Positions 8,368 to 54,157 of a stretch of DNA of 64,000 nt are shown here, piece after piece; position 1 is the first letter of the stretch, and each line of letters starts with the position of its first letter. The notes beneath the pieces were generated by a model that saw only the letters and a program-made list of their open reading frames with translations, ran no database searches and was not told where the DNA came from. The position numbers were made by a program, and so were the translations under genes. Source of the stretch: a virus; the IMG/VR virus record IMGVR_UViG_3300047499_000113, positions 176,016-240,015 of that record; one strand, 5' to 3'.

Positions 8368-9754
8368 GCGCGAACTCCTTTGGCGCCATCGGATGGAGAT
8401 CCTTATCCAACCGTACGTCCGGAGCGCTGGTCGGACCCGTGGCAATCGGGGCCCCACGGCTTCCTTTCTCGAGCTTGTCGTCCACTGAGGTGAGCTTTTC
8501 GGCCGGAGTGAAGCTCACTCCGTCGATTTCGAGTGCTTTCGGCTTGACGATACGACGTGGAGGCTCCGCCTTGACCTCCGGTTTGGGCTCGGGAGCCTTC
8601 GGAGCCGGTGCAGGCTGGGGAGGGGCCTGCTGGACGGGCGCTGCCTGCGGAGGGGCAGCCTGGGGCGCCGGCGTAGGCGGCGTTGGAGGCGTTGAGAGCC
8701 GCTTCTCCCAGTCGGCCGGCAGAGGAGTGGTAGCGGCAGGAAGATTGGGGATGGCCTCAAACAAGATGGCCTCGACGTCGGCGGCGCCGGGTTTGTCGAG
8801 CTGACCGAGGGCTTTCGCCACAGCGAGCCACGCCGGTCCACGCGTCGCGTACAGCGATGCGGGCACCATCAGGGTCGGCTTCGCCCCGACACTCGCCCGC
8901 ACGGCGCTGGTGACCACTTGGATCGTGGTGTCGCGCACCCAGGACGGTCCTTCTGTGTCGAGAAGCTCAGAAATAGCGCTCAGCGCCACCTTCGGGTCGG
9001 ACGATAGTCCTTCGAGCGCGGCGACCAGCTTCTCTGTCGCCCCGAGCCTGAAGTATGTCCTGACGTCGTCGACTGTGATAGGCCCCGCCGACGACAGCAT
9101 CTCGAGGGCAGTTAGACACGTGCGCGGGCAGTTAGACTGCGCCTGCATGATCAGCTGAAGTGCGTCGTCAGGCGCTTGAATGGACTCGGCCTCGCAGACA
9201 CGATGCAGGTGTCCAAGCAAAACGTCCACGGGCGGCGCAGAGACGGGAAACTCCGTCATCCTGTCGCGCAACGGCCCCTGGATTTTGTGAGGCTCCGTAG
9301 TGCACAGGATGACGAGCATTCGCCGATCTTCGATGCTCTTGAGGAGAGCATCTTGGGCCTGCTTCGTCAGACGCTGCGCTTCGTCTAGGATGAAAACAGA
9401 CGGCTTGCCGTTGAGATTCCCGTAGTCGAGTTCCGACACGATGGTACGCATATGCTCGACCGAGCCCTGCGTAGCGGCATCGAATTCCTCGAAACTTTCC
9501 GCGCTTTCCTGACGCACGCCGAGACATGCGTTGCATACGCCGCAGGGCTCACCGTCCTGCAAATCGTTGCAGACTACAGCGCACGCCACAATGCGCGCGA
9601 GCGAGGTTTTGCCGCAGCCCTTCGGGCCCCCGAACATCAGTGACCGCTCGCCGAGCTTTCCGCCACGACTGAGCTGATGAAGGAGCTGTACGACAGCTTT
9701 GTTCCCCAAGATATCGGCGAACTTCTTGGGTCTGTACTTGAGGTCAAGAGCCAT
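8333..9754 (-). CDS. dnaX: DNA polymerase III gamma/tau clamp-loader subunit
   Basis: 473 residues. AAA+ core: Walker A GGPKGCGKTS, a four-cysteine zinc site starting CNDLQDGEPCGVCNAC, Walker B FILDEAQRLTKQAQ and sensor 1 ILCTTEPHK. A Pro/Ala-rich linker (about 365-420) precedes a short C-terminal domain, as in tau. The canonical SRC arginine finger reads DRMTEF, so the finger is shifted or altered. Clamp, delta and delta-prime genes are in the same window, giving a complete phage clamp loader. Confidence 0.92.
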   Translation of the reverse strand: MALDLKYRPKKFADILGNKAVVQLLHQLSRGGKLGERSLMFGGPKGCGKTSLARIVACAVVCNDLQDGEPCGVCNACLGVRQESAESFEEFDAATQGSVEHMRTIVSELDYGNLNGKPSVFILDEAQRLTKQAQDALLKSIEDRRMLVILCTTEPHKIQGPLRDRMTEFPVSAPPVDVLLGHLHRVCEAESIQAPDDALQLIMQAQSNCPRTCLTALEMLSSAGPITVDDVRTYFRLGATEKLVAALEGLSSDPKVALSAISELLDTEGPSWVRDTTIQVVTSAVRASVGAKPTLMVPASLYATRGPAWLAVAKALGQLDKPGAADVEAILFEAIPNLPAATTPLPADWEKRLSTPPTPPTPAPQAAPPQAAPVQQAPPQPAPAPKAPEPKPEVKAEPPRRIVKPKALEIDGVSFTPAEKLTSVDDKLEKGSRGAPIATGPTSAPDVRLDKDLHPMAPKEFARGFLQRIKGQE

Positions 9755-19418: not shown

Positions 19419-20249
19419 TCATTGCACGCTTTCCCCCATCATTTCGTACAGTCGAGCCTCAGAGATCACTTCAGTGCCATATTTCTTGGCATTCTGCATC
19501 TTCTTGGACGTGGTGTCCGTCTCGTTGGTCACCAGGTAGCTGAGCCCGGCGCCTACACTGTCCTTGACAATCCCGCCGGCGTCCATAATCAGCTTCTGCA
19601 CGGCTTTCCGGGGCTTGGAAGTTGCCCCCGTAATGCAGAATGACTTGCCGGAAAGTGGGCCGGCTCCAGGACCCCGGATGTCGAGGACCTCTGCAAGATC
19701 CATTATAGCACGTCGACGGTCTTGGAGCCCATCATAGACCTGCTGGGCGGTCACCGGGCCAATATTCGGGACCTCGCGGAGTTGTTCGACGGTCAAGGCC
19801 AGGACCTTCTCCACAGAGTCGTAACCGGCCTGAACGATGTCCGTTGCAGTCGCCACGGCCAGATTCGGGATGTTCAGTGAAGCGATCAGCAGCTCGAGCT
19901 TGATGCTCTTGTTGGAGTGCAGGATATCATGGCACTTCTTGGCCATCTTCAGGCCCGAAGTGCATTCGGCGATTTCCTCAGGCTCGAGCTTGTAGAGATC
20001 GGCCAACGACTGGATCTTTGGGCTGTCTGGATTGGTGAGCGCGTCGATGAGCGCGTCGCCCCAATGCAACAGACCTAGCCGCTTGACCCAAACCCGCACC
20101 GAGCCCGAAAGCTGGACTGGACAGGCGCGGTTCCGGCAGTAGAGGAACTGCCCCTCGACGCTCAGTGATCCTGAACAGGCGGGACAGTGATCGGGAATCG
20201 CGAAATAGTCGGGTGCCGCGTTCATACCCTGCCAGGATACATCCGCCAC
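19419..20249 (-). CDS. NAD-dependent DNA ligase, C-terminal subunit (Zn, HhH, BRCT)
   Basis: 276 residues from a GTG start. Zinc finger HCPACSGSLSV...CRNRACPVQL (20-50), helix-hairpin-helix repeats including VPNIGPVTAQQVYDGL (about 170-190) and a BRCT domain (LSGKSFCITGATSKPRKAVQ to the end). These are exactly the parts missing from the ligase gene at 21277 on the other strand. It should join that subunit to seal nicks. Phage T5 also has a two-subunit NAD ligase, but with adjacent genes. Confidence 0.88.
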   Translation of the reverse strand: MADVSWQGMNAAPDYFAIPDHCPACSGSLSVEGQFLYCRNRACPVQLSGSVRVWVKRLGLLHWGDALIDALTNPDSPKIQSLADLYKLEPEEIAECTSGLKMAKKCHDILHSNKSIKLELLIASLNIPNLAVATATDIVQAGYDSVEKVLALTVEQLREVPNIGPVTAQQVYDGLQDRRRAIMDLAEVLDIRGPGAGPLSGKSFCITGATSKPRKAVQKLIMDAGGIVKDSVGAGLSYLVTNETDTTSKKMQNAKKYGTEVISEARLYEMMGESVQ

Positions 20250-20843: not shown

Positions 20844-21278
20844 CTAGGAGGCCATCACCTTGGCCACCTCGATAAGTTCCAGGATGGTCTCGATGCTTTC
20901 GACCTGTGTGTAGAAGAAGTAGTCGTGCCTCTGACCCTTGAGATAGGTCGCGCGGATGATCCCCGAGTATTTCTCCTGCAGGATTCTCTCGACTGCTTCC
21001 TGACTTGGCATACCTGGAAGGTCGCCGATATCACGGATCCAAACCATTCGGACCTTCGCCATCTCGCCGACTCGCGGTGCACAATATCCGAGACCCGGAC
21101 GCTCGAGCTCGACGTAGCAGATGAAGCCGGCCGCGGCGAGCATGTCCCGCCCATGCTCGCGGAACAGATCTTCGACTGCTTTCAGGTACTGCTTGTAACT
21201 GGAAGAGTCACCCTCAGAGAAGTAGGTGATTCTCCGCTCAGGCGTAGCTTTCGATTTCTTGAGCGTACCCTTTGGCAT
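20844..21278 (-). CDS. Hypothetical protein, divergent from ligase
   Basis: 144 residues, alpha/beta, with RITYFSEGDSSSYKQYLKAV and a helical C-terminus (IETILELIEVAKVMAS). LPGMPSQEAVERILQEK resembles LPGMPVQDIGDTLDKK in the protein at 50798, a possible shared motif. Its ATG overlaps the ATG of the opposite-strand ligase gene in GCATGC. The function is unknown. Confidence 0.6.
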   Translation of the reverse strand: MPKGTLKKSKATPERRITYFSEGDSSSYKQYLKAVEDLFREHGRDMLAAAGFICYVELERPGLGYCAPRVGEMAKVRMVWIRDIGDLPGMPSQEAVERILQEKYSGIIRATYLKGQRHDYFFYTQVESIETILELIEVAKVMAS

Positions 21279-22389
21279 GCCTGAGGAGTCCCTGGAAGAA
21301 GCCCGAACCCGCCTCCGACGCTACCAGGAGGCTTATTACAACCTCGAGCCCCTCGTACCCGATTCCGAGTACGACGCGCTGGTCGAGTGGGTGCGGCAGC
21401 AGGATCCAAACGCGCCCGAACTCAAGAAGGTCGGGGCACCAGTCCCAACCCATTCAGTTTGGGAGAAGGTCGCGCACGACATCCCCATGGGTTCGCTCAG
21501 CAAGGCCAACAACGAGGCGGAGTTCCTCGAATGGGCCGGCAAACTCTCCGCCGAGACTTGGTTCATCACGCATAAAATCGACGGATCGTCGATGGAGCTG
21601 GTCTACAAGGCCGGCAAGCTCATCAGATGCGTGACTCGCGGCGACGGGATGATCGGCGAGGATGTGACCGCAAACATCGCCCAAGTTCCGTCAGTCCCCA
21701 AAGAACTGCCGGTGAAGGTCGATGTGACGGTCCGGGGCGAAATCGTCATGTTCAAGGACGTGTTCAAGGAAAAGTATGCCGAGGAATACGCCAATCCGCG
21801 CAACACGGCCGCCGGCAAGGTCCGACAGAAGAAGGATGGAGGCGAGTCATGCCAGGACCTCGAGTTCCTGGCCTACTGGATGAAGATGGGCAACCATCTC
21901 GACCAGCCCAAGACGATGCACGTCACTTTCATGTGGCTGCAAAATCACGGCTTCAAGACGCCGGCCGGTCTCGCATCCGCCGAACTCGACGCCATCAAAT
22001 CCCACTTCGCGCAGACGGCCAAAGAACGAGATGCGGTCCCGTACGAGATTGACGGGATGGTCGTATCCGTCAACAGTCTCGAGCTGATGGAGGAGTTGGG
22101 GGACCTCAACATGCGCCCGCGCGGTCAAATCGCGTGGAAATTCGAAGCCCTCATGGGCATCACGCGCATGGTCGCGGTCAAATGGCAGGTGGGCCCCTCC
22201 GGACGCGTCACTCCGGTCGCTGAGGTCGAGCCCGTCGAGGTCGGAGGGGTCACCATCACGAGTGTCAGCCTGCACAATCTTTCCATCTTCCGAGATCTCA
22301 AGCTCTGGAAGGGGTGCCGGGTCCTCGTGTCCCGGCGCAACGACGTCATCCCGTATATCGAGAAGAACCTCGACCTCGAAGCGGCATGA
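21277..22389 (+). CDS. NAD-dependent DNA ligase, N-terminal subunit (adenylation, OB)
   Basis: 370 residues from the ATG at 21277. Domain Ia (YYNLEPLVPDSEYDALVEWV) binds NMN. Nucleotidyltransferase motifs: HKIDGSSMEL (lysine nucleophile), TRGDGMIGEDVT, VRGEIVM, NPRNTAAGKVRQ, YEIDGMVVSV and IAWKFEA. An OB fold ends near residue 365. The protein stops at the OB/zinc boundary of standard LigA; the remaining domains are encoded at 19419-20249 on the minus strand. No ribosome-binding site is evident. Confidence 0.9.
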   Translation: MPEESLEEARTRLRRYQEAYYNLEPLVPDSEYDALVEWVRQQDPNAPELKKVGAPVPTHSVWEKVAHDIPMGSLSKANNEAEFLEWAGKLSAETWFITHKIDGSSMELVYKAGKLIRCVTRGDGMIGEDVTANIAQVPSVPKELPVKVDVTVRGEIVMFKDVFKEKYAEEYANPRNTAAGKVRQKKDGGESCQDLEFLAYWMKMGNHLDQPKTMHVTFMWLQNHGFKTPAGLASAELDAIKSHFAQTAKERDAVPYEIDGMVVSVNSLELMEELGDLNMRPRGQIAWKFEALMGITRMVAVKWQVGPSGRVTPVAEVEPVEVGGVTITSVSLHNLSIFRDLKLWKGCRVLVSRRNDVIPYIEKNLDLEAA

Positions 22390-23203: not shown

Positions 23204-26200
23204 TCAGCTACAGCCGGTCGTTTGACCGCACGAAGTGCACAGGTAGCACGACCCATTGCGCTGCGTGATGCTGCCGCACCGAGCGCACGGAGGGCCACCG
23301 AGATTCTTGCGGGGAGGAACAGGCTCTTCCGCCGTAGCGACGGCCTGGATGCGTGTCGACGAATCGGGCTCCTTCGAGATTCCCTCGCGAACGTCCATTG
23401 CCGGCGGAGGAGCTTCAGACGCCTTCATCTGAGCGAGCTTCTCCTCGAGGCCCGAGTGCGAGCCGCCGTAGTAACGGACATCGAGCACCTTGAACAGGTA
23501 GTCGTACAGGCTCTTGGCGAACCTGATGTGCTTGTTCGAGGTGATGCCGGCGGGCTCGAACCTCGTATCGACGAAGCTTTGGATGAGCTTCGGCAGAGGC
23601 ACGCCATACTGAAGAGCGATGCTCATCAGCTGCGTGAATCCGTCGATGAGGCCCGAAATCGTGCTTCCTGGCTTTCCGAGCTTGAGGAATACCTCGCCCG
23701 GTCGCCCGTCCGCGTATTCGCCGACGATGATGTATCCCTTGTAGCCGTCGATCTCGAACTTGTGGCGCCAGCTGTTGACCTCGGCGGGCAGCTTCTCACG
23801 ACGTGCTCCAGCGGCCTTCGCTTCCGCGATGAGCTGGTCGACCGGAGGAGCCTTCGGCGCCGGCGCGGGCCTGATCCCTTCCTTGTCGCCGTCCTTCTTG
23901 GTAGAAAGAGGCTGCGAAGCCTTGCACCCGTCACGGTAGAGCGCGATGCACTTGAGCCCGAGCCGCCAGCTCTCCTCGTAGATCTTGGCGATTTCCTCGG
24001 CCGTGATCTCGCTCGGAAGATTGACGGTCTTGCTCATCGCGCACGTGATGAGCGGTTGTATGGCCGCCATCATCTTGATGTGCGCCATGGGCGAAAGGTA
24101 TCGACCGCCAGGTGCAGAAGGCATTGCGCAGTCGAATACTGGAAGGTGCTCGGGCTTGAGACCCGGAGCGCCTTCGATGGTGCCGTTGTCCTCGAGGGAC
24201 TTGCAGATGGTGTTGATCTGGTCTTCGGCGTAGCCGAGTCCGAGAAGCGCGTCACGTACGCCCGTGTTCACCAGGCGCAGAGAGCCTCCGCCCACCATGC
24301 TCTTGTAGCTCACGAGCGAGAACGCCGGCTCGATGCCGGTGGTGCTCATTCCCATGAGGAACGAGATGGTGCCGAGAGGCGCCTGGAGAGAAGCCTGCGA
24401 TACCGAGTAGCCGTACCTCTCACCAAGAGCGATTGCCTCGCGCCACACCTCGGCCGACGTCGGAACCACGTCGTCCCCGGTCGGAGACGACTCGAGATGC
24501 CAGCGCTTGATGATGGTCGCATCAGCTTCTTGATGCATCTTCATCACGCGGAGCATGTCCTCGCGGTTCAGCTCGAAATCCGGGAACGAGCCGACACGCG
24601 CCGCGAGCTTCGCCGCGGTGACGTAGACCATGCCCGTCATGAGCGATGCCATCTGCGCAGCTACCGCACGACCTTCGTCGGTGTCGTAACCGTAGCCGAG
24701 CTTCATCAACAGCGCTCCGAGGTCGCCGTAGTTCGTCCCGATGGGGCGCAGCTTGTGCGAGTTGTGCGCGATCTCTTCGGTCGGGTAATCCGCCTTGTCG
24801 ATGATCGCCATCTGCGAGGTCGAGAACAGGCGAACAGCCTGCTCGAAACGCGCCTTGACGAACTTGCGACCGTCGAAGAACTTCGTCAGGTTGATCGCGC
24901 ACAGGTTGCACGCCGTGTTGTCGACATGCAGGAACTCGCTGCAGTTGTGAGCCACCACCCCGTCAGCAATCAGAGAGCTCGTCTCCGGCTCCGTGATGTC
25001 ATAAACGAGGGTTTGCTCGCCTTTGTCGACGACCCTTACGACTTCATCGGTCCATTGATCACGGCCGTTGTTGTTCACGCCTTCCGGGATTTCGTCCAAA
25101 CGCGCCTGCTTGCGTGAGGAGAGGAGACCCACTTCGAGCATAAGAGATTTGAAGGTACGCAGACTCTGTCCAGTGATGACGAGATCGTTCGTTTTTTCCT
25201 TGGACGGGTAAGTCCGGACTTCCCCAGATTTGGTCGTATACGTGAACGACGGCTTATCGCCAGGACGCCGATCCTTATAAAGAGTGCTGTTGACGCCGAG
25301 GTTCAGAAGAAGAGCCTGCACTCCGCGCAGAAGTTCCAGGCTGGTGGAGCTGAAGCGAGCGTCGACGTTCTTCTTCGGCTGGATGTTGAAAGTCCCATCC
25401 GCAGAGAACAGGCCAGAGAGGAACGAGAGCTGCTCCAGTCGAGTGGAGCAAAAAACCGCGTCCATCACTTTCTTGACTGGAGCCTTCGTTCCCGGCTCGC
25501 AAGAAAGCGTGGACATTAGTTGCCAGACAGCCTTTCGGTGAATACGGACATAGTCCGGACTTTCACCCACAGAGCCGTCCTGACGCTTCAACGAGTATGG
25601 GATGTCGTTCCGTTCGAAGAACTTCGAGACGGTATCGAGGACGTCCTTGTCGTCACGACCGAACAGAAGGCCAACCTCGTGAGTGTTTCTGCAGGGGAGA
25701 GGTCGCAGAACCCAGCCGTCGCCGACGACCCAGCCGGCGAGCTTATGCCACATCAGGCGATCGTCGACAGCAGAGAAAGCTTTTTGAGCCTCCGTCGGGA
25801 GGCATGGCTCAGCACCCTTCTCAGAGAAGGCTCCCTGTCCGGCCTGAAGCATCAGGATGCTTTCATCCGTCAGATCGCGCGCTTCAACCCAGCCGTCCTT
25901 GGTCATGAGGCGATGATCATGGGTGACTTTGATGACACGGCCTCGACGCGTGTGAACCTCGACGAGGTGATGGACACCGGTCGGGAAGACGACCGCGTCC
26001 TTGAGCTGAGGACCGTCCGGAGTTTGGACGAGAGTGCGGAATGTCGGTTTATTCGAGTCAAAAGACTCGAACTCGGAGCAGAGATCCTCAATTCGCACGA
26101 GTCCATGCTCAGTGGCGATCCTAGTGTCCGGATGGAAGCACGGATTGCTCGCACGGATCGGACCACTCTTGGGAGTGGTGTGCCACCTGTTGATGGCGTC

Positions 26201-27289
26201 CGTGAACTGCACGCCAGGGTCTCCACAGACCCACGCGGCTTGAGCGATCTCGTTCCACAGCTCACGTGCCTTGTACTTGTGAACTGTCTTGCCCGAGCGG
26301 CGTTCCTTCGTTTCCCACTGCCCGTCGTCGAGCATGGCCTGCATGAAGGAGTCCGGCACCGACACTGAGTTGTTGGCCGCCTGGAATCGAATCCGCTTGT
26401 AGGCCCCATTCGGATCGTCGTACGCAGCCGAGTAGCCCGCCGCCACGAGCGCGTGAGCAAGCTTCTCCTCTTCCGCCTTGCAGCGGATGAAGCCCGGACG
26501 TCCATCGCGAGTCTGTAGCACGTCGGGATGGTCCATGTCCATCACGACCATCTTGGCCGCGTTGCGTGTGGCGCCGCCTGACTTCATCGCCTTGGCGTAG
26601 GCGTCGAGTCCTTCCATCCACGAGATTGGACCGGACGTGTACGAGCCAGACGAGATCTTCTCGTAAGAGGAACGGAGCTTCGAGATGTTGGCGCCGGAAC
26701 CAGATCCTGAACGGAAAATCTTCATCTCCGCGGTCTGATACTTCATGATGTCTTCGATGGAGTCGTTGACATCTTGGATGAAGCACGCCGAGGCCATCTG
26801 AGCGCGGCCGGCGATACCGAGATTGAACCACACAGGCGAGTTGAACGCGCCGTACTGGTGGAGAAGAGCGTAGCAAAGCTCCTCCTCGAACACCTGCGCG
26901 TCCCTGTCCGTGTTGAAGTATTTCTGCTCCTCGGCCCAGCGGCGGAGAGTCGAGCATACGCGCTGGAAGACTTGCTTGACGGAAGTCTCACGCACGCCGT
27001 TGATCACGCGGAAGTATTTATCCGCAACGACGTTGATGTTGTTCTGAGTCCACCACGCGGGCACCTCGATGTCCTTCTGAAAGAACACCACGTCGCCCTT
27101 GGCGTTGCGGATCTCAGCATCGGCACGACGCCACTCCACCTCGTCGAAAGGATGGACGCCGTCCTTCGTGAAAACACGGGGCCAGTGACCAGCTTCTTTG
27201 GCGATGCGCGCTTGCTCCGACGACAGATCAGCACGGGTCCCTTTCAGGATCGGTACCACTTGTGCTGACATTACGCTAGCGCTTGACAT
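23204..27289 (-). CDS. nrdJ: Class II (B12-dependent) ribonucleotide reductase with intein
   Basis: 1361 residues including a 399-residue intein; the spliced product would be about 962 residues. GAFNSPVWFNLG and FRSGSGSGANISKLR lie before the intein. The catalytic NPCSE cysteine follows it, then DNTACNLCAINL and LGTISFLMGMSTTGIEPAFS. The C-terminal part carries a GYKGYIIVGEY segment and a Cys-rich tail (CARCGS...CYLCTSCG) for redox transfer. GAGGAGG lies 6 bases before the ATG, inside the end of the delta gene. It makes dNTP precursors without needing oxygen or a small subunit. Confidence 0.92.
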   Translation of the reverse strand: MSSASVMSAQVVPILKGTRADLSSEQARIAKEAGHWPRVFTKDGVHPFDEVEWRRADAEIRNAKGDVVFFQKDIEVPAWWTQNNINVVADKYFRVINGVRETSVKQVFQRVCSTLRRWAEEQKYFNTDRDAQVFEEELCYALLHQYGAFNSPVWFNLGIAGRAQMASACFIQDVNDSIEDIMKYQTAEMKIFRSGSGSGANISKLRSSYEKISSGSYTSGPISWMEGLDAYAKAMKSGGATRNAAKMVVMDMDHPDVLQTRDGRPGFIRCKAEEEKLAHALVAAGYSAAYDDPNGAYKRIRFQAANNSVSVPDSFMQAMLDDGQWETKERRSGKTVHKYKARELWNEIAQAAWVCGDPGVQFTDAINRWHTTPKSGPIRASNPCFHPDTRIATEHGLVRIEDLCSEFESFDSNKPTFRTLVQTPDGPQLKDAVVFPTGVHHLVEVHTRRGRVIKVTHDHRLMTKDGWVEARDLTDESILMLQAGQGAFSEKGAEPCLPTEAQKAFSAVDDRLMWHKLAGWVVGDGWVLRPLPCRNTHEVGLLFGRDDKDVLDTVSKFFERNDIPYSLKRQDGSVGESPDYVRIHRKAVWQLMSTLSCEPGTKAPVKKVMDAVFCSTRLEQLSFLSGLFSADGTFNIQPKKNVDARFSSTSLELLRGVQALLLNLGVNSTLYKDRRPGDKPSFTYTTKSGEVRTYPSKEKTNDLVITGQSLRTFKSLMLEVGLLSSRKQARLDEIPEGVNNNGRDQWTDEVVRVVDKGEQTLVYDITEPETSSLIADGVVAHNCSEFLHVDNTACNLCAINLTKFFDGRKFVKARFEQAVRLFSTSQMAIIDKADYPTEEIAHNSHKLRPIGTNYGDLGALLMKLGYGYDTDEGRAVAAQMASLMTGMVYVTAAKLAARVGSFPDFELNREDMLRVMKMHQEADATIIKRWHLESSPTGDDVVPTSAEVWREAIALGERYGYSVSQASLQAPLGTISFLMGMSTTGIEPAFSLVSYKSMVGGGSLRLVNTGVRDALLGLGYAEDQINTICKSLEDNGTIEGAPGLKPEHLPVFDCAMPSAPGGRYLSPMAHIKMMAAIQPLITCAMSKTVNLPSEITAEEIAKIYEESWRLGLKCIALYRDGCKASQPLSTKKDGDKEGIRPAPAPKAPPVDQLIAEAKAAGARREKLPAEVNSWRHKFEIDGYKGYIIVGEYADGRPGEVFLKLGKPGSTISGLIDGFTQLMSIALQYGVPLPKLIQSFVDTRFEPAGITSNKHIRFAKSLYDYLFKVLDVRYYGGSHSGLEEKLAQMKASEAPPPAMDVREGISKEPDSSTRIQAVATAEEPVPPRKNLGGPPCARCGSITQRNGSCYLCTSCGQTTGCS
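24944..26140 (-). mobile_element. LAGLIDADG intein within nrdJ
   Basis: Residues 384-782 of the precursor. It begins at Cys384 (CFHPDTRIATEHGLV), has block B-like VTHDHRLM, and ends ADGVVAHN before Cys783. Two LAGLIDADG-like helices (KLAGWVVGDG and FLSGLFSADG) mark a homing endonuclease domain. The +1 extein residue is the cysteine of NPCSE, the reductase thiyl-radical position, so an unspliced enzyme would be inactive. Confidence 0.92.
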
Positions 27290-28190
27290 CCTTCGCCTCC
27301 TCAGACAACCGAATCACTTCCAACTCCAGACCAAAGCGCGCCCAAGGACTACCGCGTTTGTGCGCGATGTCCAGGTCGCAAAGCGTGTCGATGGACCGTT
27401 GTAGCGACTGCTTGGTCCATAGACCCTTGCGAGTTACGTACATCCGCTTGAGAACAAACGGATGGACCCCGAGAGTTATGGCGGCCCGGTCGTCGGGTGC
27501 CTTGCTCTCCGCCAGCAGCTCGAACCGCAGCTGCTGAAGTACATGACGCTGCATGTACGCGAGGACCCACCCAGTCTCATCGGTGCGCTCCTGGAGCTTG
27601 TCGAGAAAAGCGAGCGCTCTGGCGGTTTGTCCGTCGCATAACGAGTCAACAACTTCTTTCGGGGTCAGCTCGGCAGAGAAACAGAGGAGGGAGCGTGCTG
27701 CGTCCGGTGATACGACGCTACCTTTTGGCGTGACCAATGCAAGCTTGTCCACCTCTGTAGCGAGCTTACGAAGACTGCTTCCAGAGTTCACAAAAAGAGC
27801 ACCCGCTACTCTCGATAGATCTATGTTGTGCCTTTGACCCTCTTTTAGGATCCAGCCGAGCACTTCGTTGTTTTCCGGATATGACTTCAATTTTGGAAAT
27901 TTCAACGCGCGCTTGGCCTTCGGGTGCGTGAGTGGCTTCTTGCTGAGGACAATCAGCGTGTCATGCTCGTTGACGGGGAGCGCAGGCACCTCCTTAGCAT
28001 CCCAAATGACGTACGCGCGCTTTCCTCCGCCAAGGAGGCAGCACGACGACTCCTGCAGATATTCATCGAGCCCCGCTGAAGTGGCATCGAATTGCAGCAC
28101 TTCTTCAGCGAGACTGAGACGAGCCTCGTCCTGAGCGGCCCGCTCCATCAACAGCTCTTCCTCGCCACTGATGAGGACCAAGACCGGCAT
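27276..28190 (-). CDS. holA: DNA polymerase III delta subunit
   Basis: 304 residues from the ATG at 28190. MPVLVLISGEEELLMERA is the HolA N-terminus, followed by a cryptic AAA+ fold with HDTLIVLSKKPL, then NSGSSLRKLATEVDKLAL and the helical collar (LAYMQRHVLQQLRFE). Delta opens the clamp. It lies directly after delta-prime and overlaps nrdJ by 14 bases. Confidence 0.85.
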   Translation of the reverse strand: MPVLVLISGEEELLMERAAQDEARLSLAEEVLQFDATSAGLDEYLQESSCCLLGGGKRAYVIWDAKEVPALPVNEHDTLIVLSKKPLTHPKAKRALKFPKLKSYPENNEVLGWILKEGQRHNIDLSRVAGALFVNSGSSLRKLATEVDKLALVTPKGSVVSPDAARSLLCFSAELTPKEVVDSLCDGQTARALAFLDKLQERTDETGWVLAYMQRHVLQQLRFELLAESKAPDDRAAITLGVHPFVLKRMYVTRKGLWTKQSLQRSIDTLCDLDIAHKRGSPWARFGLELEVIRLSEEAKDVKR

Positions 28191-28201
28191 GGACTGGTAG
28201 C

Positions 28202-29023
28202 TTACACCAGAGACACCAGATGGGTAGCCATTCTCAGCCAATGGATCTCGGCGCTCGCGGACGGCACGGAGAGTAGAGCGGAGCTGTATCTGAGAATCGT
28301 CACCAACTGATCGGTCGTGGCTTTCTTGAACTTCGCTGCGGTGAGCGCTGCTTCGCGACAAACGTGCGCTACGCACTCTCGTTGCAGGGGTTCTTTGGCC
28401 TCTTTGACGACCTCCGGTACGGAGTCAGTCAGTAGACTGGCCTTGCCCTCGCACGCACGCATGAGGATGTCGAACAACTCGGCGTGCTTGGTGCCGCCCT
28501 CGTTTTCGAACATAGCATGGAAGAGTCCGGGCCGTCCGCCACACAAGATGAGCGCTTTGCTGTCTTCGCCGGATCCGAAGGCGACGGCGAAGTTGCGCAT
28601 CTCCATGAGAGACAAGAGCTTCCATCGAATGGTGCAACGGAATCTCGAGCGGATCGCGGGCTGCAGGAGCCCATCGTCCGGCACCACAAACACGATGCAC
28701 GAATGATCGCCCGGCTGCTCGAGAAGCTTGAGATACGCGTCCTGCGCAGCCTCCGTCATCGTATGCGCATCATCAACGATGACGTACCTATTCGGTGACG
28801 AGAGCGGGTGCGTCTTGCAGAATTCGACCGCCTCGCGAGCCGAATCGATACTTTTGTCTGCCAGGAAGAGATCCGTCTCTGCCGTCAGCTCAGATAGGGT
28901 GTCCCTCAGGAACGTCGCTTTGCCCACGTGCGACGGACCCGTCAGGCACAGACTCCTGGCCGAGCTGTCCAGAGCCACCTTCAGCTTCGACTGCGCTGGG
29001 GAGTTGCCGAAGATTTGCGTCAA
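28202..29023 (-). CDS. holB: DNA polymerase III delta-prime subunit
   Basis: 273 residues from a TTG start. GPSHVGKATFLRDTL is a P-loop, RYVIVDDAHTMTEAAQDAYL the Walker B/sensor region, LLEQPGDHSCIVFVV sensor 1, and AIRSRFRCTIRW the SRC-like arginine finger. It completes the clamp loader with DnaX and HolA. The start overlaps the end of the zinc-ribbon frame upstream. Confidence 0.85.
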   Translation of the reverse strand: MTQIFGNSPAQSKLKVALDSSARSLCLTGPSHVGKATFLRDTLSELTAETDLFLADKSIDSAREAVEFCKTHPLSSPNRYVIVDDAHTMTEAAQDAYLKLLEQPGDHSCIVFVVPDDGLLQPAIRSRFRCTIRWKLLSLMEMRNFAVAFGSGEDSKALILCGGRPGLFHAMFENEGGTKHAELFDILMRACEGKASLLTDSVPEVVKEAKEPLQRECVAHVCREAALTAAKFKKATTDQLVTILRYSSALLSVPSASAEIHWLRMATHLVSLV

Positions 29024-34569: not shown

Positions 34570-35298
34570 ATGAAGAAGAACGGGCGAGGAAAGCCTCTGG
34601 ACCGGGAAGAAGTAGATCGTCACATCGACGACTGCCTCCGAAGGCTCCGGTGCGGCAAAGACGCTCCATACTTCCGCTCTCTGCTTGAGGGAATGGTTTA
34701 TCAGGGCGTAGTGCCTCTAGACCTGCTACGGAAGGTGCCCGCTCCTGCACAGGAAGCCGGCAAGACGCGCTTTGACCAGCTCTACGGGGCTGCGATGCAG
34801 CTCGTGTTCCCCGACTACAGAGAAGAGACGCTCCGGCGCTTTCTCGGTCCTGAGGCTCCCGTCACGGAGGACAAAATCTGGCGCGTCATGTTCCCCGAGA
34901 AATTCGGCATGACTCACGTGTTCATGCGCGCAGGAACTTTCCAGCAGGCGTTCGCTCTCGGATGCGACTACGCGTGTCGCGTTCACATGCGTGCGTTTGC
35001 GACGATCCCATCGGACCTCACCATTCGGGTGATGTTTGTCTCCGAGAGGGCCCTTCGTCGAATACTCGACATGCGTTGGGCGGCCAAGACTCACAAGCGA
35101 ATGCAGCTCAAGCTTGTGGGCAGGGAGTTCACGCCGCGGATGCTCAAAGGCGCGAGGCTCGCGGCGCTCGGTCATCCGGACAGCCCTATGCACTCGATAG
35201 CCAGGTACGCCGAGATGAAGGACCTCGAGAAGGTTCGAAAGTCCAAAGGACGAGTGCGTACGTCGCCGGTCGAATCGGAATCTTTTCGCAGAAAATGA
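34570..35298 (+). CDS. Hypothetical basic protein
   Basis: 242 residues, rich in Arg and Lys, with DREEVDRHIDDCLRRLRCG near the start, FPDYREETLRRFLGPEAP and an Arg-rich tail. No family is recognised. It begins the main plus-strand gene run, directly after the best -10 element in the window, so it is likely well expressed. Confidence 0.65.
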   Translation: MKKNGRGKPLDREEVDRHIDDCLRRLRCGKDAPYFRSLLEGMVYQGVVPLDLLRKVPAPAQEAGKTRFDQLYGAAMQLVFPDYREETLRRFLGPEAPVTEDKIWRVMFPEKFGMTHVFMRAGTFQQAFALGCDYACRVHMRAFATIPSDLTIRVMFVSERALRRILDMRWAAKTHKRMQLKLVGREFTPRMLKGARLAALGHPDSPMHSIARYAEMKDLEKVRKSKGRVRTSPVESESFRRK

Positions 35299-35341: not shown

Positions 35342-36517
35342 ATGCAAGACGGCAAGTTCAACGTCATCATTGACGCTTTTTGGGGTTCATCTGGCAAGGG
35401 CAAGACCTCGACGTGGTTGGCCGACAAGTTTTCGGTCACCCGTGTGTCGTCTTCGAACTTCCCGAACGCCGGCCACACAGCCGCTTTCGAGGACGGGACG
35501 AAGTTCGTGGCTAAGGCCATCCCCACTGCCGCCATTCTCAAGAAGACTCGAGGCATGGGCGTCGAGTGCTTTCTTTCACCGGGTTCCGGTTTCGCGTGGG
35601 CGCAGCTCGTCAAGGAGTGGAAGGAAGCCGGCAAGCCGACCATCCGCATCCACGAACGAGCCAGCATCGTCACCGACGACCACGCAAAGCGAGAGCGTGA
35701 AGGCGCGGAGTCGACGATGCACATAGCGTCGACGATGCAGGGTTCGGCTGCGGCAATCGTGGACAAGGTGCTTCGCAAGGCGGACTGCCAGCTCGCGTGG
35801 AACACCGTCGACGAAGTGATGCGCGGATTCGAGGGCACGATGAGCCCCGAGTTCGCCGAGTCGGTTCGCGTACTCAAGGCCGACGCTTTCCGCGCAATGT
35901 CGCAGGGCGCGGTCCTCGACGAGGGCCACACGTGGCTGCACGAGGGCTCTCAGGGCTTCTCGCTCTCCATCGACCATGGCTCTCACTACCCGCACTGCAC
36001 GAGTCGAAACTGCACGGTGCAAGCGGCGCTCGATCACATGGCGATGCCGCCGCAGGTCCTCGGCGACGTCTATCTCAATCTGCGCACTCGACCCATACGC
36101 GTAGGGAACGTCGTGGACAATGGCATCCAGAAGGGTTACTCGGGCGATTTCTACCCGGACTGCAAGGAGATGACCTGGGAGCAGGTCGCGGCAGAGTCCG
36201 GGATGCCGGCGGAGGAAGCGAAGATCCTGGCCGAGCGCGAGCGCACAACGGTGACCAAGCGCATCCGCCGCGTCTGCAACTTCACCTTCGTGGGCCTGCG
36301 CGACGCCGTGCGCACCAACGGCGCCACGAAACTCTGCCTCAACTTCATCCAGTACGTCAACTGGGAAGACCGTGGCCTCAAGGGAGGCCGGGACGCCTTC
36401 GACAAGCTCTCGAAGAAGAGCCGCGCGTTCATCGATAGGGTCGAGGAGGCCGCGCAAGTGCCGGTCGTGCTCGTGGGAACCGGCGCGCTTCATGATGAAA
36501 TGATAACTCTCTTGTAG
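35342..36517 (+). CDS. purZ: PurZ-like adenylosuccinate synthetase homologue
   Basis: 391 residues, shorter than bacterial PurA (about 430). The P-loop region reads FWGSSGKGKTS where PurA has WGDEGKGK, so the catalytic Asp is Ser. NFPNAGHTAAF keeps the catalytic His. EGSQGFSLSIDHGSHYPHC and TVTKRIRRVCNFTFVGLRD match the IMP/GTP- and aspartate-binding regions. The Asp-to-Ser change is the feature reported for PurZ, which condenses dGMP with aspartate on the way to 2-amino-dATP. A PurA-like activity is the alternative. Confidence 0.8.
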   Translation: MQDGKFNVIIDAFWGSSGKGKTSTWLADKFSVTRVSSSNFPNAGHTAAFEDGTKFVAKAIPTAAILKKTRGMGVECFLSPGSGFAWAQLVKEWKEAGKPTIRIHERASIVTDDHAKREREGAESTMHIASTMQGSAAAIVDKVLRKADCQLAWNTVDEVMRGFEGTMSPEFAESVRVLKADAFRAMSQGAVLDEGHTWLHEGSQGFSLSIDHGSHYPHCTSRNCTVQAALDHMAMPPQVLGDVYLNLRTRPIRVGNVVDNGIQKGYSGDFYPDCKEMTWEQVAAESGMPAEEAKILAERERTTVTKRIRRVCNFTFVGLRDAVRTNGATKLCLNFIQYVNWEDRGLKGGRDAFDKLSKKSRAFIDRVEEAAQVPVVLVGTGALHDEMITLL

Positions 36518-36537: not shown

Positions 36538-36990
36538 ATGATTCAAAAGAAGCGCCGCTGCAACGTCTGTAAGAAGAAGAAGACTCTCGATGAGTTCTAC
36601 AGGAACTCAAAATTCCCACTGGGCCGTACATATACGTGCAAGCTTTGTATGAATGAAGCGGGCACGGCGAGGTACCAGCGGAACAAGGAAGAAATCAATC
36701 GGAAGAGGCGAGAGGAAACCAGACGCCTGAAACTTGAAGTGGTCGATGGGTATGGCGGGCACTGCGAGTGCTGCGGTGAAGACCGGTGGCAGTTTCTCAA
36801 CATCGACCATCGCAATGGGGGCGGGACAGCTGAACGACGAAATGCCAAGAACAAGAATCCACTTTTCTTTTACAAACGGCTCGTCGCCGAGGGTTTCCCT
36901 AAAGAAAAGTTCCGTTTGCTCTGTTGGAATTGCAATTTGAGCATTGGTCTATACGGGTCGTGTCCACACACAGAAGAGAAAGTCGCATGA
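36538..36990 (+). CDS. Free-standing HNH homing endonuclease
   Basis: 150 residues. Zinc finger CNVCKKKKTLDEF...CKLCMNEAG, a basic linker and an HNH core (HCECCGEDRWQFLNIDHRNGGG; LLCWNCNLSIGLYGSCPH). It shares the core and the LSIG..G.CPH ending with the gene at 18777, so the two are paralogues. It lies between the purZ-like and NADAR genes and is more AT-rich than either. Confidence 0.85.
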   Translation: MIQKKRRCNVCKKKKTLDEFYRNSKFPLGRTYTCKLCMNEAGTARYQRNKEEINRKRREETRRLKLEVVDGYGGHCECCGEDRWQFLNIDHRNGGGTAERRNAKNKNPLFFYKRLVAEGFPKEKFRLLCWNCNLSIGLYGSCPHTEEKVA

Positions 36991-37572
36991 CCGACGAAGA
37001 TCTCTTCTACGATCCTGAGTCGGTCTATAACTTCAAGGTGAAGAAAGTGGCGCGCGTTCCGTCGGGTGAGAAGATGCATGACCTCGTCGTCCGAGACGGC
37101 TACGCGCTCTTTTGGGGCGAGTGGCCGTCCAACTGGACGTGGGCGCCCTTCACTCTCGACGGCGTGCGGTATAACTGCACCGAACAGCACATGATGGCAG
37201 AGAAAGCTCGGCTCTTCAAGGATGAGCAGGCTCTCCGCCACATCATGAAGGCTACGGACCCGGCGAACCAGAAACGCTATGGTCGGCAGGTAAAGGGCTT
37301 TGACGAACGTAGATGGTCGTCAGTCTGCTACGACATCGTGCTTCGTGGGAATCTCGAGAAGTATCGGCAAAACCCGGAGCTTTGCGAGAAGCTCCTGGCG
37401 ACCGGGAATCTCCATTTTGTCGAGGCTAGCCCCAAGGATAAAGTGTGGGGCATCGGTATGGACAAACATCACCCCGACGCGACAAAACCCCGGCAAATGG
37501 CTCGGCAAAAATCTGCTCGGGAAAGTGCTCGACGAAACCAGGCGTATCATCAGGCAGGAGCGTGGGTTGTGA
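36987..37572 (+). CDS. NADAR (YbiA/RibX-type) domain protein with +1 frame break
   Basis: The ATG overlaps the HNH stop. YALFWGEWPSNWTWAPFTLD, then NCTEQHMMAEKARLF and VWGIGMDKHHPDATKP, match the NADAR fold, which hydrolyses ADP-ribosyl or riboflavin-intermediate N-glycosides. The expected C-terminus (GKWLGKNLLGKVLDETRRII) is in the +1 frame; switching at the CCCC run 37488-37491 restores about 195 residues ending at 37572. Unshifted, the frame runs on into the next gene. A sequencing error or programmed +1 shift are both possible. Confidence 0.75.
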
Positions 37573-38057
37573 GCCAGCTCGTGGACTTCTACGCCGGCGC
37601 CGGCAAAGACCACGCGGGCCGCAAGATCGACGACATTTGGGCTTGGGATGAAGACAAGCTCGAGAACGTTCACGACTACATCCAGTGGCTCTTCCCGAAC
37701 AGGGCCCCGAGCCGCTTCAATCCGGAGGCTCCGCTACTGACCGACGAAGACGCACAAGCTTTCAAGGAAAGCACTTACCTGTCGTCGCGAGTTCTGCGCT
37801 CGTTCGACATGATGTGCGCGTTCTATCGCGTTGGCTCCATGCAGTGCAAGCGTGCAGGCGTGAACGAGGGCCCGCCGTACTGGTGGGACAGCTTCGCGCA
37901 TTCGCACAATTGGCTGCGGATGACCCGCATCATGCTCTGCATGACCGAGGTCGGCTACCAAGACAACGCAAAAACTTTTCTCGAGTGCATCGAGAAAGCG
38001 ACTCTTCCGGACAGCAAAACGCGGCTCTTTTGGCGAGCCGCAGCGGGCGTGAAATGA
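37569..38057 (+). CDS. OGFr_N-like domain protein
   Basis: 162 residues from a GTG overlapping the NADAR stop (GTGA). DFYAGAGKDHAGRKIDDIWA, LENVHDYIQWLFPNR and SRFNPEAPLLTDEDAQAF match the conserved region of the opioid growth factor receptor family, also found in bacteria and phages with no known activity. SFDMMCAFYRVG completes the domain. Coupling to a NADAR gene suggests a joint role. Confidence 0.75.
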   Translation: MSQLVDFYAGAGKDHAGRKIDDIWAWDEDKLENVHDYIQWLFPNRAPSRFNPEAPLLTDEDAQAFKESTYLSSRVLRSFDMMCAFYRVGSMQCKRAGVNEGPPYWWDSFAHSHNWLRMTRIMLCMTEVGYQDNAKTFLECIEKATLPDSKTRLFWRAAAGVK

Positions 38058-39036: not shown

Positions 39037-40371
39037 ATGAGCGACATCAAGACAGAAGTCTTTTGCCTCACAGCCCCGGACGGCCGTCTGTTGCCACCTG
39101 CTGTACAGGCAACGGTACTCGCCAAGTATTCCCGATCGCCACTGTCGGCGCGGCAAATCGTCGCGTCGCTGACGGAGGAAGAGGCGGACAAGTTCCAGGA
39201 GAAGTGGGTCATCGGGTACAACCACTCGAGCGTCGCTGAGTTGGCTGTTTTGCCGATTTGCTTCGAGGGCGTGTCCATCGTCGCTTCCAAATTCCTGGAA
39301 TCCTTCCAAAGGCCCGGGTACTCGGAAAAGAGTACACGTTACCAGGTCTTCTCTCGCGATTCCTTCGTCACGCCACCTGGTGCGCCGGCGACAATGCAGA
39401 AGTTTGCCGCCAGGTTCTACGACGCGTACGAAAGCCTGTATCCGAAGGTCCTGCAGCGTGTGGCCAAGCTCACCGGCAAGGACCCGGAAGACCGATTGGT
39501 CAAGGCTCGAACATTCGACAACGTCAGGTATCTGCTGCCCGCCGGGACCGGCACGAACCTAGCCTGGGTCGGCAATGCGAGAGACGCTCGCTACCTCATT
39601 TCCGCAGCTCGAGGTCACACCAACCCCGAGATCCGGATGCTCGGCGATATGGCAGCGAAAGCCGTGGCAGAGATGTGCCCGGTGTTCGTGCAGAAGGCCG
39701 ATGCGGACTCATTCGAACCGCCGATTCGGAGCCTCGGCAATCTCAGCCCGAAGTTCGACTTCTCCAACCCGAACTGGTACGTCGACTTGCATCGCAAGCA
39801 TCTATTGCCAGACTCGGCGCTCGTGCAGAAGTCCTTCGAGGCAGCGATAGCTGACCGCCACGGCATGAGTTGGTCTGCTTTCTCGAAGCTCATGGAGTCC
39901 CGTGGACCCCGAGCGGTACCCAGGGTGTTCCGCACAATCCAGCTCTCGTTCGACATCATGATGGACTACGGAGCGTATCGCGACCTGCAGCGGCACCGCA
40001 GGTGTGAGCAATACGCCGAGCCCCTGCACCCCAACTACGGATTCCTCGTCCCGGACGACATTCTCGGGACCGAACTCGAGCAGGAGTACCGGGCGGCAAT
40101 GCAAGCGGCCCACGCGTACGACGACGAAGCGGTCGTGCACGACCCCGACCTGATGCAGTACATGGTTCCACTCGGATACCTGCACCGGTCGGTCTTCGAC
40201 ATGGACGCTCAGGAGGTTTATTACCTGTCCGAGTTGAGGACGCAGCCTCAAGGCCACATCTCGTACCGGCGAGTGGCGTACGAACTGAGTCGTGTGGCGG
40301 CGGCCAGGCTCCCTCAGGTCTTCCAGTGGTGCCGGGCCATCAAGCCGGAGGCAATCGGCGAACACAAGTGA
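39037..40371 (+). CDS. thyX: Two-domain FAD-dependent thymidylate synthase (ThyX type)
   Basis: 444 residues, about twice a single ThyX. The first half has HNSSVAEL-like YNHSSVAELAV and FQRPGYSEKSTRYQ; the second has YRDLQRHRRCEQYAEPLHPN, matching the RHRxxSxxxxSxR signature but without its serines. The NEKSxRY and RHR parts of the active site thus sit in different halves, as in other long ThyX proteins. It makes dTMP (or possibly a modified pyrimidine) with flavin. Confidence 0.8.
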   Translation: MSDIKTEVFCLTAPDGRLLPPAVQATVLAKYSRSPLSARQIVASLTEEEADKFQEKWVIGYNHSSVAELAVLPICFEGVSIVASKFLESFQRPGYSEKSTRYQVFSRDSFVTPPGAPATMQKFAARFYDAYESLYPKVLQRVAKLTGKDPEDRLVKARTFDNVRYLLPAGTGTNLAWVGNARDARYLISAARGHTNPEIRMLGDMAAKAVAEMCPVFVQKADADSFEPPIRSLGNLSPKFDFSNPNWYVDLHRKHLLPDSALVQKSFEAAIADRHGMSWSAFSKLMESRGPRAVPRVFRTIQLSFDIMMDYGAYRDLQRHRRCEQYAEPLHPNYGFLVPDDILGTELEQEYRAAMQAAHAYDDEAVVHDPDLMQYMVPLGYLHRSVFDMDAQEVYYLSELRTQPQGHISYRRVAYELSRVAAARLPQVFQWCRAIKPEAIGEHK

Positions 40372-44018: not shown

Positions 44019-44690
44019 ATGCAAGACGACGACAAAGTGGCACTCATCGACCTGGACGGAACAATCGCCGACTACGACACGGCGATGAAGAAAGAGCTGG
44101 ACTTCCTGCGCTCTCCTGGAGAGCCTCCGGTGATCGACAGGTACATGGACAGGGAAGCCAACGAAGTGCGTGCTGCAAGAAGGGCTTCTACGCGAGCGGT
44201 GGCGCACGAGGCGCCTCATCTCGAGCGCCGACGCAAGCTCATCCAGCAAAAGCCCGGATTCTGGCGCGGACTCCCTCGTCATCCGCTCGGATTCCAGGTA
44301 ATCGAAGAGATACGCGCCCTGCGCTTCACGCTCGGCGTGCTCACGAAGGGTCCGGGCAAGACTCCGGGAGCGTGGACCGAGAAGTTCGAGTGGTGTCAGG
44401 CGAACATCCCCGACGCCGACGTGACCATCACGCAGAACAAGGCGCGCGTCTACGGGCGCGTCCTGTTCGATGACTGGCCCGACTACTACATCCCGTGGCT
44501 CGTCCACCGTCCGCGCGGACTCGTCATCTCGGTCGCTCAGCCGTGGAATGCGAACATGGACGAGATTCTTGCTGCGGCGAAGAAGGCGGGAGTCGAGACT
44601 CCGCGCATCATTCGCTACGATGGGACGAATCTCGAAGAGTTGAAAGCGCAGCTGCACTGGGCGTACAATCGTCCGTCACGGAGCGTCTGA
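44019..44690 (+). CDS. HAD-superfamily phosphatase, nucleotidase-like
   Basis: 223 residues. ALIDLDGTIADYD is HAD motif I, GVLTKGPGKTPGAW motif II and RVLFDDWPDYY motif IV; NKARVYGR supplies the motif III region. Phage relatives are often 5'(3')-deoxyribonucleotidases. It starts 2 bases after the previous stop. It may trim unwanted dNMPs, fitting the altered nucleotide metabolism, but the substrate is not evident from sequence. Confidence 0.75.
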   Translation: MQDDDKVALIDLDGTIADYDTAMKKELDFLRSPGEPPVIDRYMDREANEVRAARRASTRAVAHEAPHLERRRKLIQQKPGFWRGLPRHPLGFQVIEEIRALRFTLGVLTKGPGKTPGAWTEKFEWCQANIPDADVTITQNKARVYGRVLFDDWPDYYIPWLVHRPRGLVISVAQPWNANMDEILAAAKKAGVETPRIIRYDGTNLEELKAQLHWAYNRPSRSV

Positions 44691-52561: not shown

Positions 52562-53213
52562 GGCGTTTCGCCCGTCACTCGACGACCCGAAAGTCTACTT
52601 CCAAAAGGCACTCGGTTTCGCCCGCACGCACTACGCGGACGAAATGGAACAAATCGCGTCGGTCAAACACGAACTAGTTGACCCAACGCATTTCTTCCGC
52701 GAGTACACGTGGGTTGTACACGCCACGGGGTTCTCGGCCAAGGCAGTAGGCAAGTTCATGCCTCGTTTGGTCGAGGCTTACGGCCCATACAACGAGCTTG
52801 CCGAGCGGAGTCTCGAGGATGCCATCGGGCGCGTCAAGGTGGTATGCAACAATCCGCAGAAAATAAAGGCAGTACATACTACATCCCGCCTACTTCGCGA
52901 TGGCATCAAAGTCCACGGATGGGACGAGTTCAAGAAGCAGAAGCTCTCGACTCCCGACCTGCTCAAGAAGCTGCCCTATGTTGGTCCGGTGACGTGCTTC
53001 CATCTCGCACGCAACATCGGGCTCCTCGACTGCGTGAAGCCCGACCTGCACCTCATTCGGCTCGCTGAGCATTGGAAATTCAAGGACTGCACAGCGATGT
53101 GCAAGGCCATGGGCGAAGGATCGGGACTGCCGCTGGGCATCGTCGACCTGGTGGTATGGTACGCCGCGTCCACCTTCGGAACTCTTGAGGTGCGCAAGGA
53201 AGGGCAGCGCTAA
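52527..53213 (+). CDS. HhH-GPD DNA glycosylase-like protein
   Basis: 228 residues from the ATG at 52527, with GAGGG 5 bases upstream. KKLPYVGPVTCFHLARN is the helix-hairpin-helix and KPDLHLIRLAEHW contains the catalytic Asp of the GPD loop. The Lys of bifunctional endonuclease III (LPGVGxKTA) is replaced by Val, suggesting a glycosylase without lyase activity. No Fe-S cysteines are seen. It may remove damaged or host-marked bases. Confidence 0.75.
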   Translation: MEPHKSLDSSIEAFRPSLDDPKVYFQKALGFARTHYADEMEQIASVKHELVDPTHFFREYTWVVHATGFSAKAVGKFMPRLVEAYGPYNELAERSLEDAIGRVKVVCNNPQKIKAVHTTSRLLRDGIKVHGWDEFKKQKLSTPDLLKKLPYVGPVTCFHLARNIGLLDCVKPDLHLIRLAEHWKFKDCTAMCKAMGEGSGLPLGIVDLVVWYAASTFGTLEVRKEGQR

Positions 53214-54157
53214 TGCACTACATCGTTTGCATCAGTGGATTCGCAGGGGCGGGCAAAGACGAATGCGCGAGCCAGCTCGTCAGAGGGCATTCTGCAGTGC
53301 AAACGGGTCTTGCGGATCCGGGCAAACGCCACATGGCCGATGCTTACGGATTTACCGAGAAACAGCTTTTCGGACCGAGCCAGTTCCGTAACGCCGGCGA
53401 CGTGCGCATCCCGAAGAATGCCTTCTATGAGCGTGGCCTCGAGCACGTCCTCGAGTTCCCGGATGGAATGGTCGACGCCGCCGATGATAAGTACAAGCTG
53501 GACACGAGCCAGAAGTATTGGGTCTATACGAACGTGATGTTCGACGGCAAAAGGCCCTGGCATCGCGCGGGCAGCGGCCACTACAACATTTTCGTCCGCG
53601 AAGGGGACCCGGAGTTCTGGCTCTCCCCTCGAGAAGCGCTGCAGCAGTATCTCGAGAAGATGAATCAGCTCGACGTCTACACCTGGATCCGCAAGGGCAT
53701 CGAGGACCAGCTGCTCCTCGCAACGGGCCGTTGGAGCTACAACCGCATGCGCGGCCTCATCCGTGCAGACGACCCGGAAGCTGACTCTCGCACCATGATA
53801 GATAGGTCGAGTCAGCACACGGTCACCTGCTTCGCCGACTTCAGACACATCCCCGAAGTGCAGTATATTCGGGATCTCGCTGATCGGAGCCTCGTGCCCT
53901 TCAAGCCGGTGCTCATCCGAGTAAAGCGACCGAGCGTGCCTGTGCCGCCCTATAATCATAGGTCGGAGACCGAACAGGTCAAAATCCGCGACGCAGCGTT
54001 CGATGCCGTCGTTCACAACGACAAAGACCTTCCTCACTTGTATGCTCAGGTTGACGACGTAGTGCGCCGAGCAATGGCAGGAGACCTGCCGCCCAACTCA
54101 TGGCGCGAAGAGTACGTCATCGCCGACCGCAAGCCGGAGGAAGGGTACGCACCGTGA
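53213..54157 (+). CDS. Deoxynucleoside monophosphate kinase
   Basis: 314 residues; the ATG overlaps the previous stop (TAATG). ISGFAGAGKDECASQLV is the Walker A loop. KRHMADAYGFTEKQLFG and TVTCFADFRHIPEVQYI match the phage dNMP-kinase family, which phosphorylates dTMP, dGMP and modified dNMPs. It is longer than T4 gp1 (241 residues) because of central insertions. In a Z-DNA phage it could also act on dZMP, which is inference. Confidence 0.82.
   Translation: MHYIVCISGFAGAGKDECASQLVRGHSAVQTGLADPGKRHMADAYGFTEKQLFGPSQFRNAGDVRIPKNAFYERGLEHVLEFPDGMVDAADDKYKLDTSQKYWVYTNVMFDGKRPWHRAGSGHYNIFVREGDPEFWLSPREALQQYLEKMNQLDVYTWIRKGIEDQLLLATGRWSYNRMRGLIRADDPEADSRTMIDRSSQHTVTCFADFRHIPEVQYIRDLADRSLVPFKPVLIRVKRPSVPVPPYNHRSETEQVKIRDAAFDAVVHNDKDLPHLYAQVDDVVRRAMAGDLPPNSWREEYVIADRKPEEGYAP

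Follow-up and report, generated by a model that had tools for sequence, protein, structure and literature searches.

Jumbo phages encode a PurZ relative without the usual helper genes and may make or use 2-aminoadenine in a different way

A 64,000-nucleotide stretch of viral DNA, positions 176,016 to 240,015 of the IMG/VR record IMGVR_UViG_3300047499_000113 (hereafter the window), encodes at 35342..36517 on the plus strand a relative of PurZ, the synthetase of phages that carry 2-aminoadenine (Z) in their DNA. The gene belongs to a lineage of jumbo phages in which the usual set of helper genes, DatZ, MazZ and DpoZ, is not seen, and such phages may make or use 2-aminoadenine differently. The protein probably has PurZ activity. 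We put at about 0.6 the probability that the enzyme is active in this way and that the Z deoxynucleoside triphosphate (dZTP) is used in DNA at least in part.

The gene is an uninterrupted frame of 391 amino acids with an ATG start. The N-terminus MQxGxFNV, common to the window protein and its orthologues in two relatives described below, supports the chosen start codon. The sole Pfam match is PF00709 (E = 4.7e-31, over the cut-off). The motif WGSSGKGK (residues 14–21; 35381..35404, +) places Ser16 at the position of the catalytic Asp13 of Escherichia coli PurA, and NAGHT (residues 42–46; 35465..35479, +) keeps the histidine as His45 (E. coli His41). Both features had been noticed in a preliminary description of the window and are confirmed in the DNA and in the alignment. 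Replacement of the catalytic Asp by Ser is the accepted mark of a 2-amino purine substrate. In our alignment, this column holds Ser in all PurZ, PurZ0 and jumbo-phage rows shown and Asp in the PurA rows, and a column-by-column comparison finds that His41, Lys16, Thr129, Arg143, Gln224 and Thr239 (E. coli PurA numbering) are kept in the window protein.

The aspartate loop, described earlier as kept, is indeed present at residues 302–310 (TTVTKRIRR; 36245..36271, +; PurA counterpart GATTGRRRR), but its sequence TTVTKR is of the PurZ type and not the GATTGR of PurA. The motif NFIQY (36341..36355, +) forms an adenine-type energy-donor pocket, where the PurA counterpart is TKLD for GTP. N334, F335 and Q337 of the window protein correspond to N305, F306 and Q308 of S-2L PurZ, to which the published structure gives a role in recognising the adenine of the ATP or dATP donor (PMC8342488). 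The PurZ0 and PurA rows retain an Asp in the donor motif, whereas the window protein has Gln there. Judged by these residues, the donor pocket is PurZ-type, not PurZ0-type or PurA-type, and the NFIQ pocket argues for ATP rather than GTP as the donor. Ser16, the aspartate loop (TTVTKR) and the donor pocket (NF-Q) have all switched together to the PurZ state.

A sequence search against solved structures returned phiVC8 PurZ first (8e-34) and S-2L PurZ next (8e-28), with all PurAs behind. The AlphaFold2 model of the protein, built with a 64-row alignment, has a mean predicted local distance difference test score (pLDDT) of 95.5. With this model, the top five Foldseek matches consist of phiVC8 and S-2L PurZ, followed by archaeal PurA and E. 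coli PurA, and PurZ0 ranks 11th. The best NCBIfam model is PurZ NF038379 (1.8e-55).

In a maximum-likelihood tree of 83 rows, every Ser-bearing protein falls within a single group (100/100), which stands away from the PurAs of E. coli, Methanobrevibacter and LR756503. PurZ0 branches first within the Ser group, and the PurZ side without PurZ0 is supported at 100/97. The window protein falls in a 23-row clade of its own (95/99), separate from the classical PurZ clade (31 rows, 98/90); its position inside the PurZ/PurZ0 group and not with ordinary PurA answers the tree check proposed earlier. The contigs of the 23-row clade, mostly from large phages, measure 19–408 kb, nine of them above 200 kb, and the viral contigs of the classical clade measure at most 64 kb, and in both clades contigs may be fragments. 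The placement of two long branches, MaF61 and L145, is unsure. Ordinary PurA is rejected as the identity of the window protein, since the catalytic Asp, the GATTGR-type loop and the TKxD donor motif are all replaced and the tree position lies outside PurA. PurZ0 is rejected because the donor-pocket Asp is missing and the protein is not on the PurZ0 branch. The proposal of a PurZ-type enzyme is therefore supported by sequence, fold, pocket residues and tree, and misses only the NCBIfam PurZ cut-off, which leads us to regard the protein as a divergent PurZ relative outside the curated set.

Some purZ frames in the comparison are long. That of L129 (7989-10253, +) reaches about 751 amino acids, and that of L136 (4812-8507, +) exceeds 1,200, with an intein-like insert straight after NAGH of NAGHT. 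Another deep PurZ group occurs in small contigs (L088/L089, L092, L093, L095, L099 and L101). Upstream of purZ, this group has family A polymerases of its own that belong to neither DpoZ group, and L088/L089 additionally carry a Dut-family gene.

The window forms the right-hand end of a linear virus record of 240,015 bases (G000; GC content 60%), in which a home-made gene caller finds about 227 genes. By its genes for portal protein, large terminase and contractile tail sheath, we take the record to be a jumbo myovirus-like phage. Among described phages, the portal is nearest to those of LR745208 (47%), Tunturi_5 (38%) and Bacillus phage G (28%), and the terminase to those of LR745208 (44%) and Tunturi_5 (26%). 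LR745208 is uncultured and 485 kb long; Tunturi_5 has 309 kb and an Acidobacteriota host. Very close purZ genes are located on two viral contigs, G001 (393,220 bases, GC 50%) and G002 (273,770 bases, GC 66%). G001 is probably complete, because it has an exact 55-base terminal direct repeat, as in a circularly closed assembly. The three records are linked by 128–146 reciprocal best hits arranged in long syntenic runs, and the gene order around purZ is the same in G001 and G002. The identity of purZ there is 75% and 80%, against means of 56% and 50%, which ranks it 11th of 124 and 2nd of 112 orthologues, respectively.

Because both orthologues keep Ser in the same gene order, the Ser motif is not a chance change; Ser is also present in every locus of the large-phage clade with a readable motif. 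The adenylosuccinate synthetase of the 735-kb phage LR756503, found with the same query family, retains GDEGKG, so Ser is not general to the PurA of huge phages. Between purZ and its G002 orthologue, nonsynonymous divergence (dN) is 0.14 and synonymous divergence (dS) is 0.94, values by which the gene is under strong purifying selection.

On the basis of pocket, fold and tree, we suggest that the jumbo-phage PurZ would act as an N6-succino-2-amino-2'-deoxyadenylate (dSMP) synthase, converting deoxyguanylate (dGMP), Asp and ATP into dSMP. In the window phage, host PurB (adenylosuccinate lyase) would then turn dSMP into the Z deoxynucleoside monophosphate (dZMP), and host kinases would carry it to dZTP, a course established for other PurZ phages (PMC12884076). 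A phage family A polymerase, seen only in the relatives, would place dZTP opposite T. Candidates for the exclusion of A are an HD protein of G001 and a nucleotidase and a nucleoside hydrolase of the window. With no DatZ or MazZ and, in the relatives, a polymerase other than DpoZ, either other pool-biasing enzymes would be at work or A would be replaced only in part, and partial substitution is a real possibility. We lean towards some Z in the virion DNA, and complete replacement of A by Z seems rather unlikely.

Neither DatZ, MazZ, MazG nor a polymerase of family A, B or C was found in the window or in the whole 240-kb record, which is truncated. The earlier statement that the window has no DatZ, MazZ or polymerase is therefore correct and extends to the entire record. 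As a positive control, the same home-made profiles repeatedly find DatZ, MazZ and DpoZ beside purZ in classical loci. A search with a DatZ alignment covered 22 records of the large-phage clade and matched only one, through the HD protein a138 of G001 (L030:13584-14195; E = 1.2e-14), with nothing in the other 21. The best model for this protein is the YfbR 5'-deoxynucleotidase NF003009 (7e-19), itself under its cut-off. W20, I22, Q29 and P79 of S-2L DatZ, residues with roles taken from PMC8065100, are Tyr, Ser, Glu and Thr in the G001 protein, and the metal and phosphate ligands are kept. We reject its identity as DatZ, since YfbR fits better and the base-recognition residues differ; by its sequence, the protein could be a functional substitute for DatZ. 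Among the other records of the large-phage clade, only G015 and the 43-kb G021 have a MazG match above the cut-off. DutZ and DmtZ have no profile match in the window lineage. PurZ0 phages, which are without DatZ and MazZ, use other helpers (PMC12884076), so that the lack of both genes alone does not exclude Z DNA.

G001 and G002 encode a family A polymerase (PolA; 958 amino acids in G001) with a 3'-5' exonuclease-type N-terminal part. The window record starts a few kilobases past the place matching this gene; it shows no polymerase because it is truncated, and the phage's own copy probably lies off the contig. Against DpoZ models, the PolA of G001 and G002 scores 29–54 bits, with cut-offs of 350–500. 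It is rejected as DpoZ on these scores, far under the cut-offs, and on its place outside both DpoZ groups. LR745208, whose PolA is its closest companion, has neither PurA nor PurZ in 485 kb. The low scores and this grouping mean that the polymerase gives no sign of Z specialisation. In S-2L, a non-selective polymerase still yields a Z genome when DatZ removes dATP (PMC8065100), but DatZ is missing in the window lineage. We also notice that the PolA frame of LR745208 (L192 1411-6189), at least 1,593 amino acids long, is apparently broken by two intein-sized inserts.

Several of these results weigh against PurZ activity combined with the use of Z in DNA. DatZ is absent from G000 and G002, and the apparently complete G001 has only the YfbR-like HD protein; a MazG or MazZ profile match is absent from all three records; the PolA of G001 and G002 groups at 100/100 with that of LR745208, outside DpoZ-1 and DpoZ-2; and the window protein reaches 188 bits where the NF038379 cut-off is 300. 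Of the Z genome suggested in the preliminary description, the PurZ enzyme is supported; the genome itself is plausible, although DatZ and MazZ are missing even in the 393-kb relative and PolA is outside DpoZ. PurZ activity might instead coexist with an adenine genome, if its product drains host dGMP or dGTP, is incorporated too sparsely for functional substitution, interferes with nucleotide-based host defence or feeds another modified nucleotide. No DatZ/MazZ/DpoZ set is seen in the lineage, the apparently complete genome included, and the polymerase has its nearest counterpart in a phage that lacks PurZ. However, PurZ serves base substitution in every characterised phage (PMC12884076, PMC8342488), and the PurZ0 phages likewise do so with other helpers in place of DatZ and MazZ. 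We consider this combination of PurZ activity and an adenine genome rather unlikely.

The Ser residue would be irrelevant to DNA chemistry if the protein were a phage-adapted adenylosuccinate synthetase in PurA-like use, acting on inosine monophosphate (IMP) or GMP-type ribonucleotides or in adenine supply. It does retain the PurA fold and most catalytic residues, a true PurA is possible in huge phages (LR756503), and the PurZ family cut-off is missed. True PurAs, including that of LR756503, nevertheless keep Asp, whereas here Ser, TTVTKR and NF-Q have changed jointly, and the Ser group stands at 100/100; this makes PurA-like use very unlikely. That the protein has no synthetase activity, as a relic or in a new role, is hardly credible in view of the dN and dS values, the stop-free frame, the active-site residues kept over deep divergence and the mean pLDDT. 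We favour PurZ activity in combination with at least partial incorporation of dZTP. In its favour also count the family A polymerase of both relatives and, in a second large-phage lineage described next, an NDT-type protein paired with PurZ.

The terminase of the window lineage is absent from most other members of the large-phage PurZ clade, so this type of PurZ is shared by at least two lineages of large phages that are not related. In the second lineage, PolA is short in most records (about 380–475 amino acids) and covers the polymerase domain only. A protein of about 130 amino acids of the nucleoside deoxyribosyltransferase (NDT) type (L081:6087-6524, L075:6094-6543, L083:6072-6503 and kin) ends 0.9–2.3 kb upstream of purZ in 15 of 23 loci examined, near-duplicates included (about 10 distinct), and also in L136. 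It matches Pfam PF05014 under the cut-off (E = 4e-4), and profile comparison relates it to the NDT domains of Ghobes gp53, Makoto and Keanu with a probability of 90%. The protein is distantly similar to DmtZ. In PurZ0 phages, DmtZ, an enzyme of the NDT superfamily, breaks down dAMP by cleavage and forms dZMP from the free base Z (PMC12884076). These sequences provide a lead that some large phages may pair PurZ with a dAMP-removing enzyme. We do not extend the link to the window lineage, as the NDT-like profile finds no match in G000–G002. Building on PurZ activity with at least partial dZTP use, we tentatively raise a broader idea that we hold to be rather doubtful: a clade of large and jumbo phages, of at least two unrelated lineages and up to about 400 kb, might make Z DNA by a third route, in which a distinct PurZ works without DatZ, MazZ and DpoZ but with other pool-shaping enzymes, in one lineage an NDT near purZ acting like DmtZ.

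Directly upstream of purZ lies a conserved gene of 201 amino acids (34693..35298, +), kept in G001 (64%) and G002 (55%). Directly after purZ, a gene at 36987-38057 (+) encodes a fusion of NADAR and OGFr_N domains, with an orthologue in G001 (68%). NADARs reverse guanine ADP-ribosylation, and 2-aminoadenine has the same 2-amino group; by this analogy, a link between the fusion and 2-aminoadenine is conceivable. The thymidylate synthase ThyX/Thy1 (39037..40371, +; PF02511 3.8e-32; orthologues 77% and 68%) belongs to general nucleotide metabolism, and the class II ribonucleotide reductase (23204..27289, -; PF02867 1.1e-110), with intein and LAGLIDADG domains, to general deoxynucleoside triphosphate supply. 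An NT5C-like 5'-deoxynucleotidase (44019..44690, +; PF06941 1.3e-5, just over the cut-off) may, by this match, act in nucleotide pool control. The inosine-uridine-type nucleoside hydrolase (4674-5564, -; PF01156 1.3e-13) has no orthologue found in G001 or G002. Of the neighbours once cited as fitting an altered purine pool, the ribonucleotide reductase (class II) and one NT5C nucleotidase hold, and the deoxynucleoside monophosphate kinase (53213-54154) is a candidate with a sub-threshold match only (PF21448, E = 0.003). Ribonucleotide reductase, Thy1 and nucleotidases near purZ are a regular feature of large phages and tell little about an altered purine pool.

Three further genes resemble bacterial clamp-loader subunits, one gamma/tau-like and two delta-like (8333-9754, 27276-28148, 28202-29023, -), and the lineage in which they occur has a polymerase of family A. 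An NAD-dependent DNA ligase is apparently split into an adenylation/OB gene and an HHH-BRCT gene on opposite strands (21277-22389, +, and 19419-20225, -).

In the literature searched, with subscription papers mostly outside it, we found no report of PurZ or 2-aminoadenine in jumbo or huge phages. A 2026 review of jumbo phages counts uracil, deazaguanine and acyl-adenine among their unusual bases, with no mention of 2-aminoadenine (PMC13282480). Should Z be present in the phages described here, there would be very large genomes of three-hydrogen-bond DNA, and PurZ would spread independently of its usual partners; the helpers truly needed, and base substitution as a means of defence evasion by jumbo phages, would then become testable. 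Were Z absent from them, a second use of PurZ would follow.

Z-DNA phages described in the literature searched are small, with a recognisable helper set, and the genomes of such phages retrieved for comparison measure 38–83 kb. Tunturi_5 and phage G differ from the window phage in not being among the PurZ matches listed. The synthetases of Flavobacterium phage MaF61 (167 kb) and Bacillus phage vB_BpsS-140 are Ser-bearing like the window protein, and that of MaF61 is also below the PurZ cut-off (145 bits), but they sit on other tree branches, a long one for MaF61. MaF61 may encode both early steps, since its Ser-bearing synthetase is accompanied by a putative adenylosuccinate lyase (L020 23052-24395 and 34736-36091). 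DpoZ of the phiVC8 and PurZ0 types is a family A polymerase like the PolA of G001 and G002, which nevertheless falls outside both groups. PurZ0 of Arthrobacter and Gordonia phages (PDB 7VF6) has its own donor-pocket Asp (TMLD type) against Gln in the window protein and is separated from it in the tree, and the window lineage is without a DutZ or DmtZ match; the two share Ser for Asp and the TTVT loop, and the PurZ0 phages are also without DatZ and MazZ. PurZ of phiVC8 and S-2L (PDB 6FM1, 7ODX) is only about 31–32% identical to the window protein (tblastn), which lies in a separate clade, and the window phage is about ten times larger, with no datZ or mazZ beside purZ. The enzymes nevertheless have in common the fold, Ser for Asp, the TTVTK loop, the NF-Q/N donor pocket and the dGMP-pocket residues N, A, T, Q, R and V.
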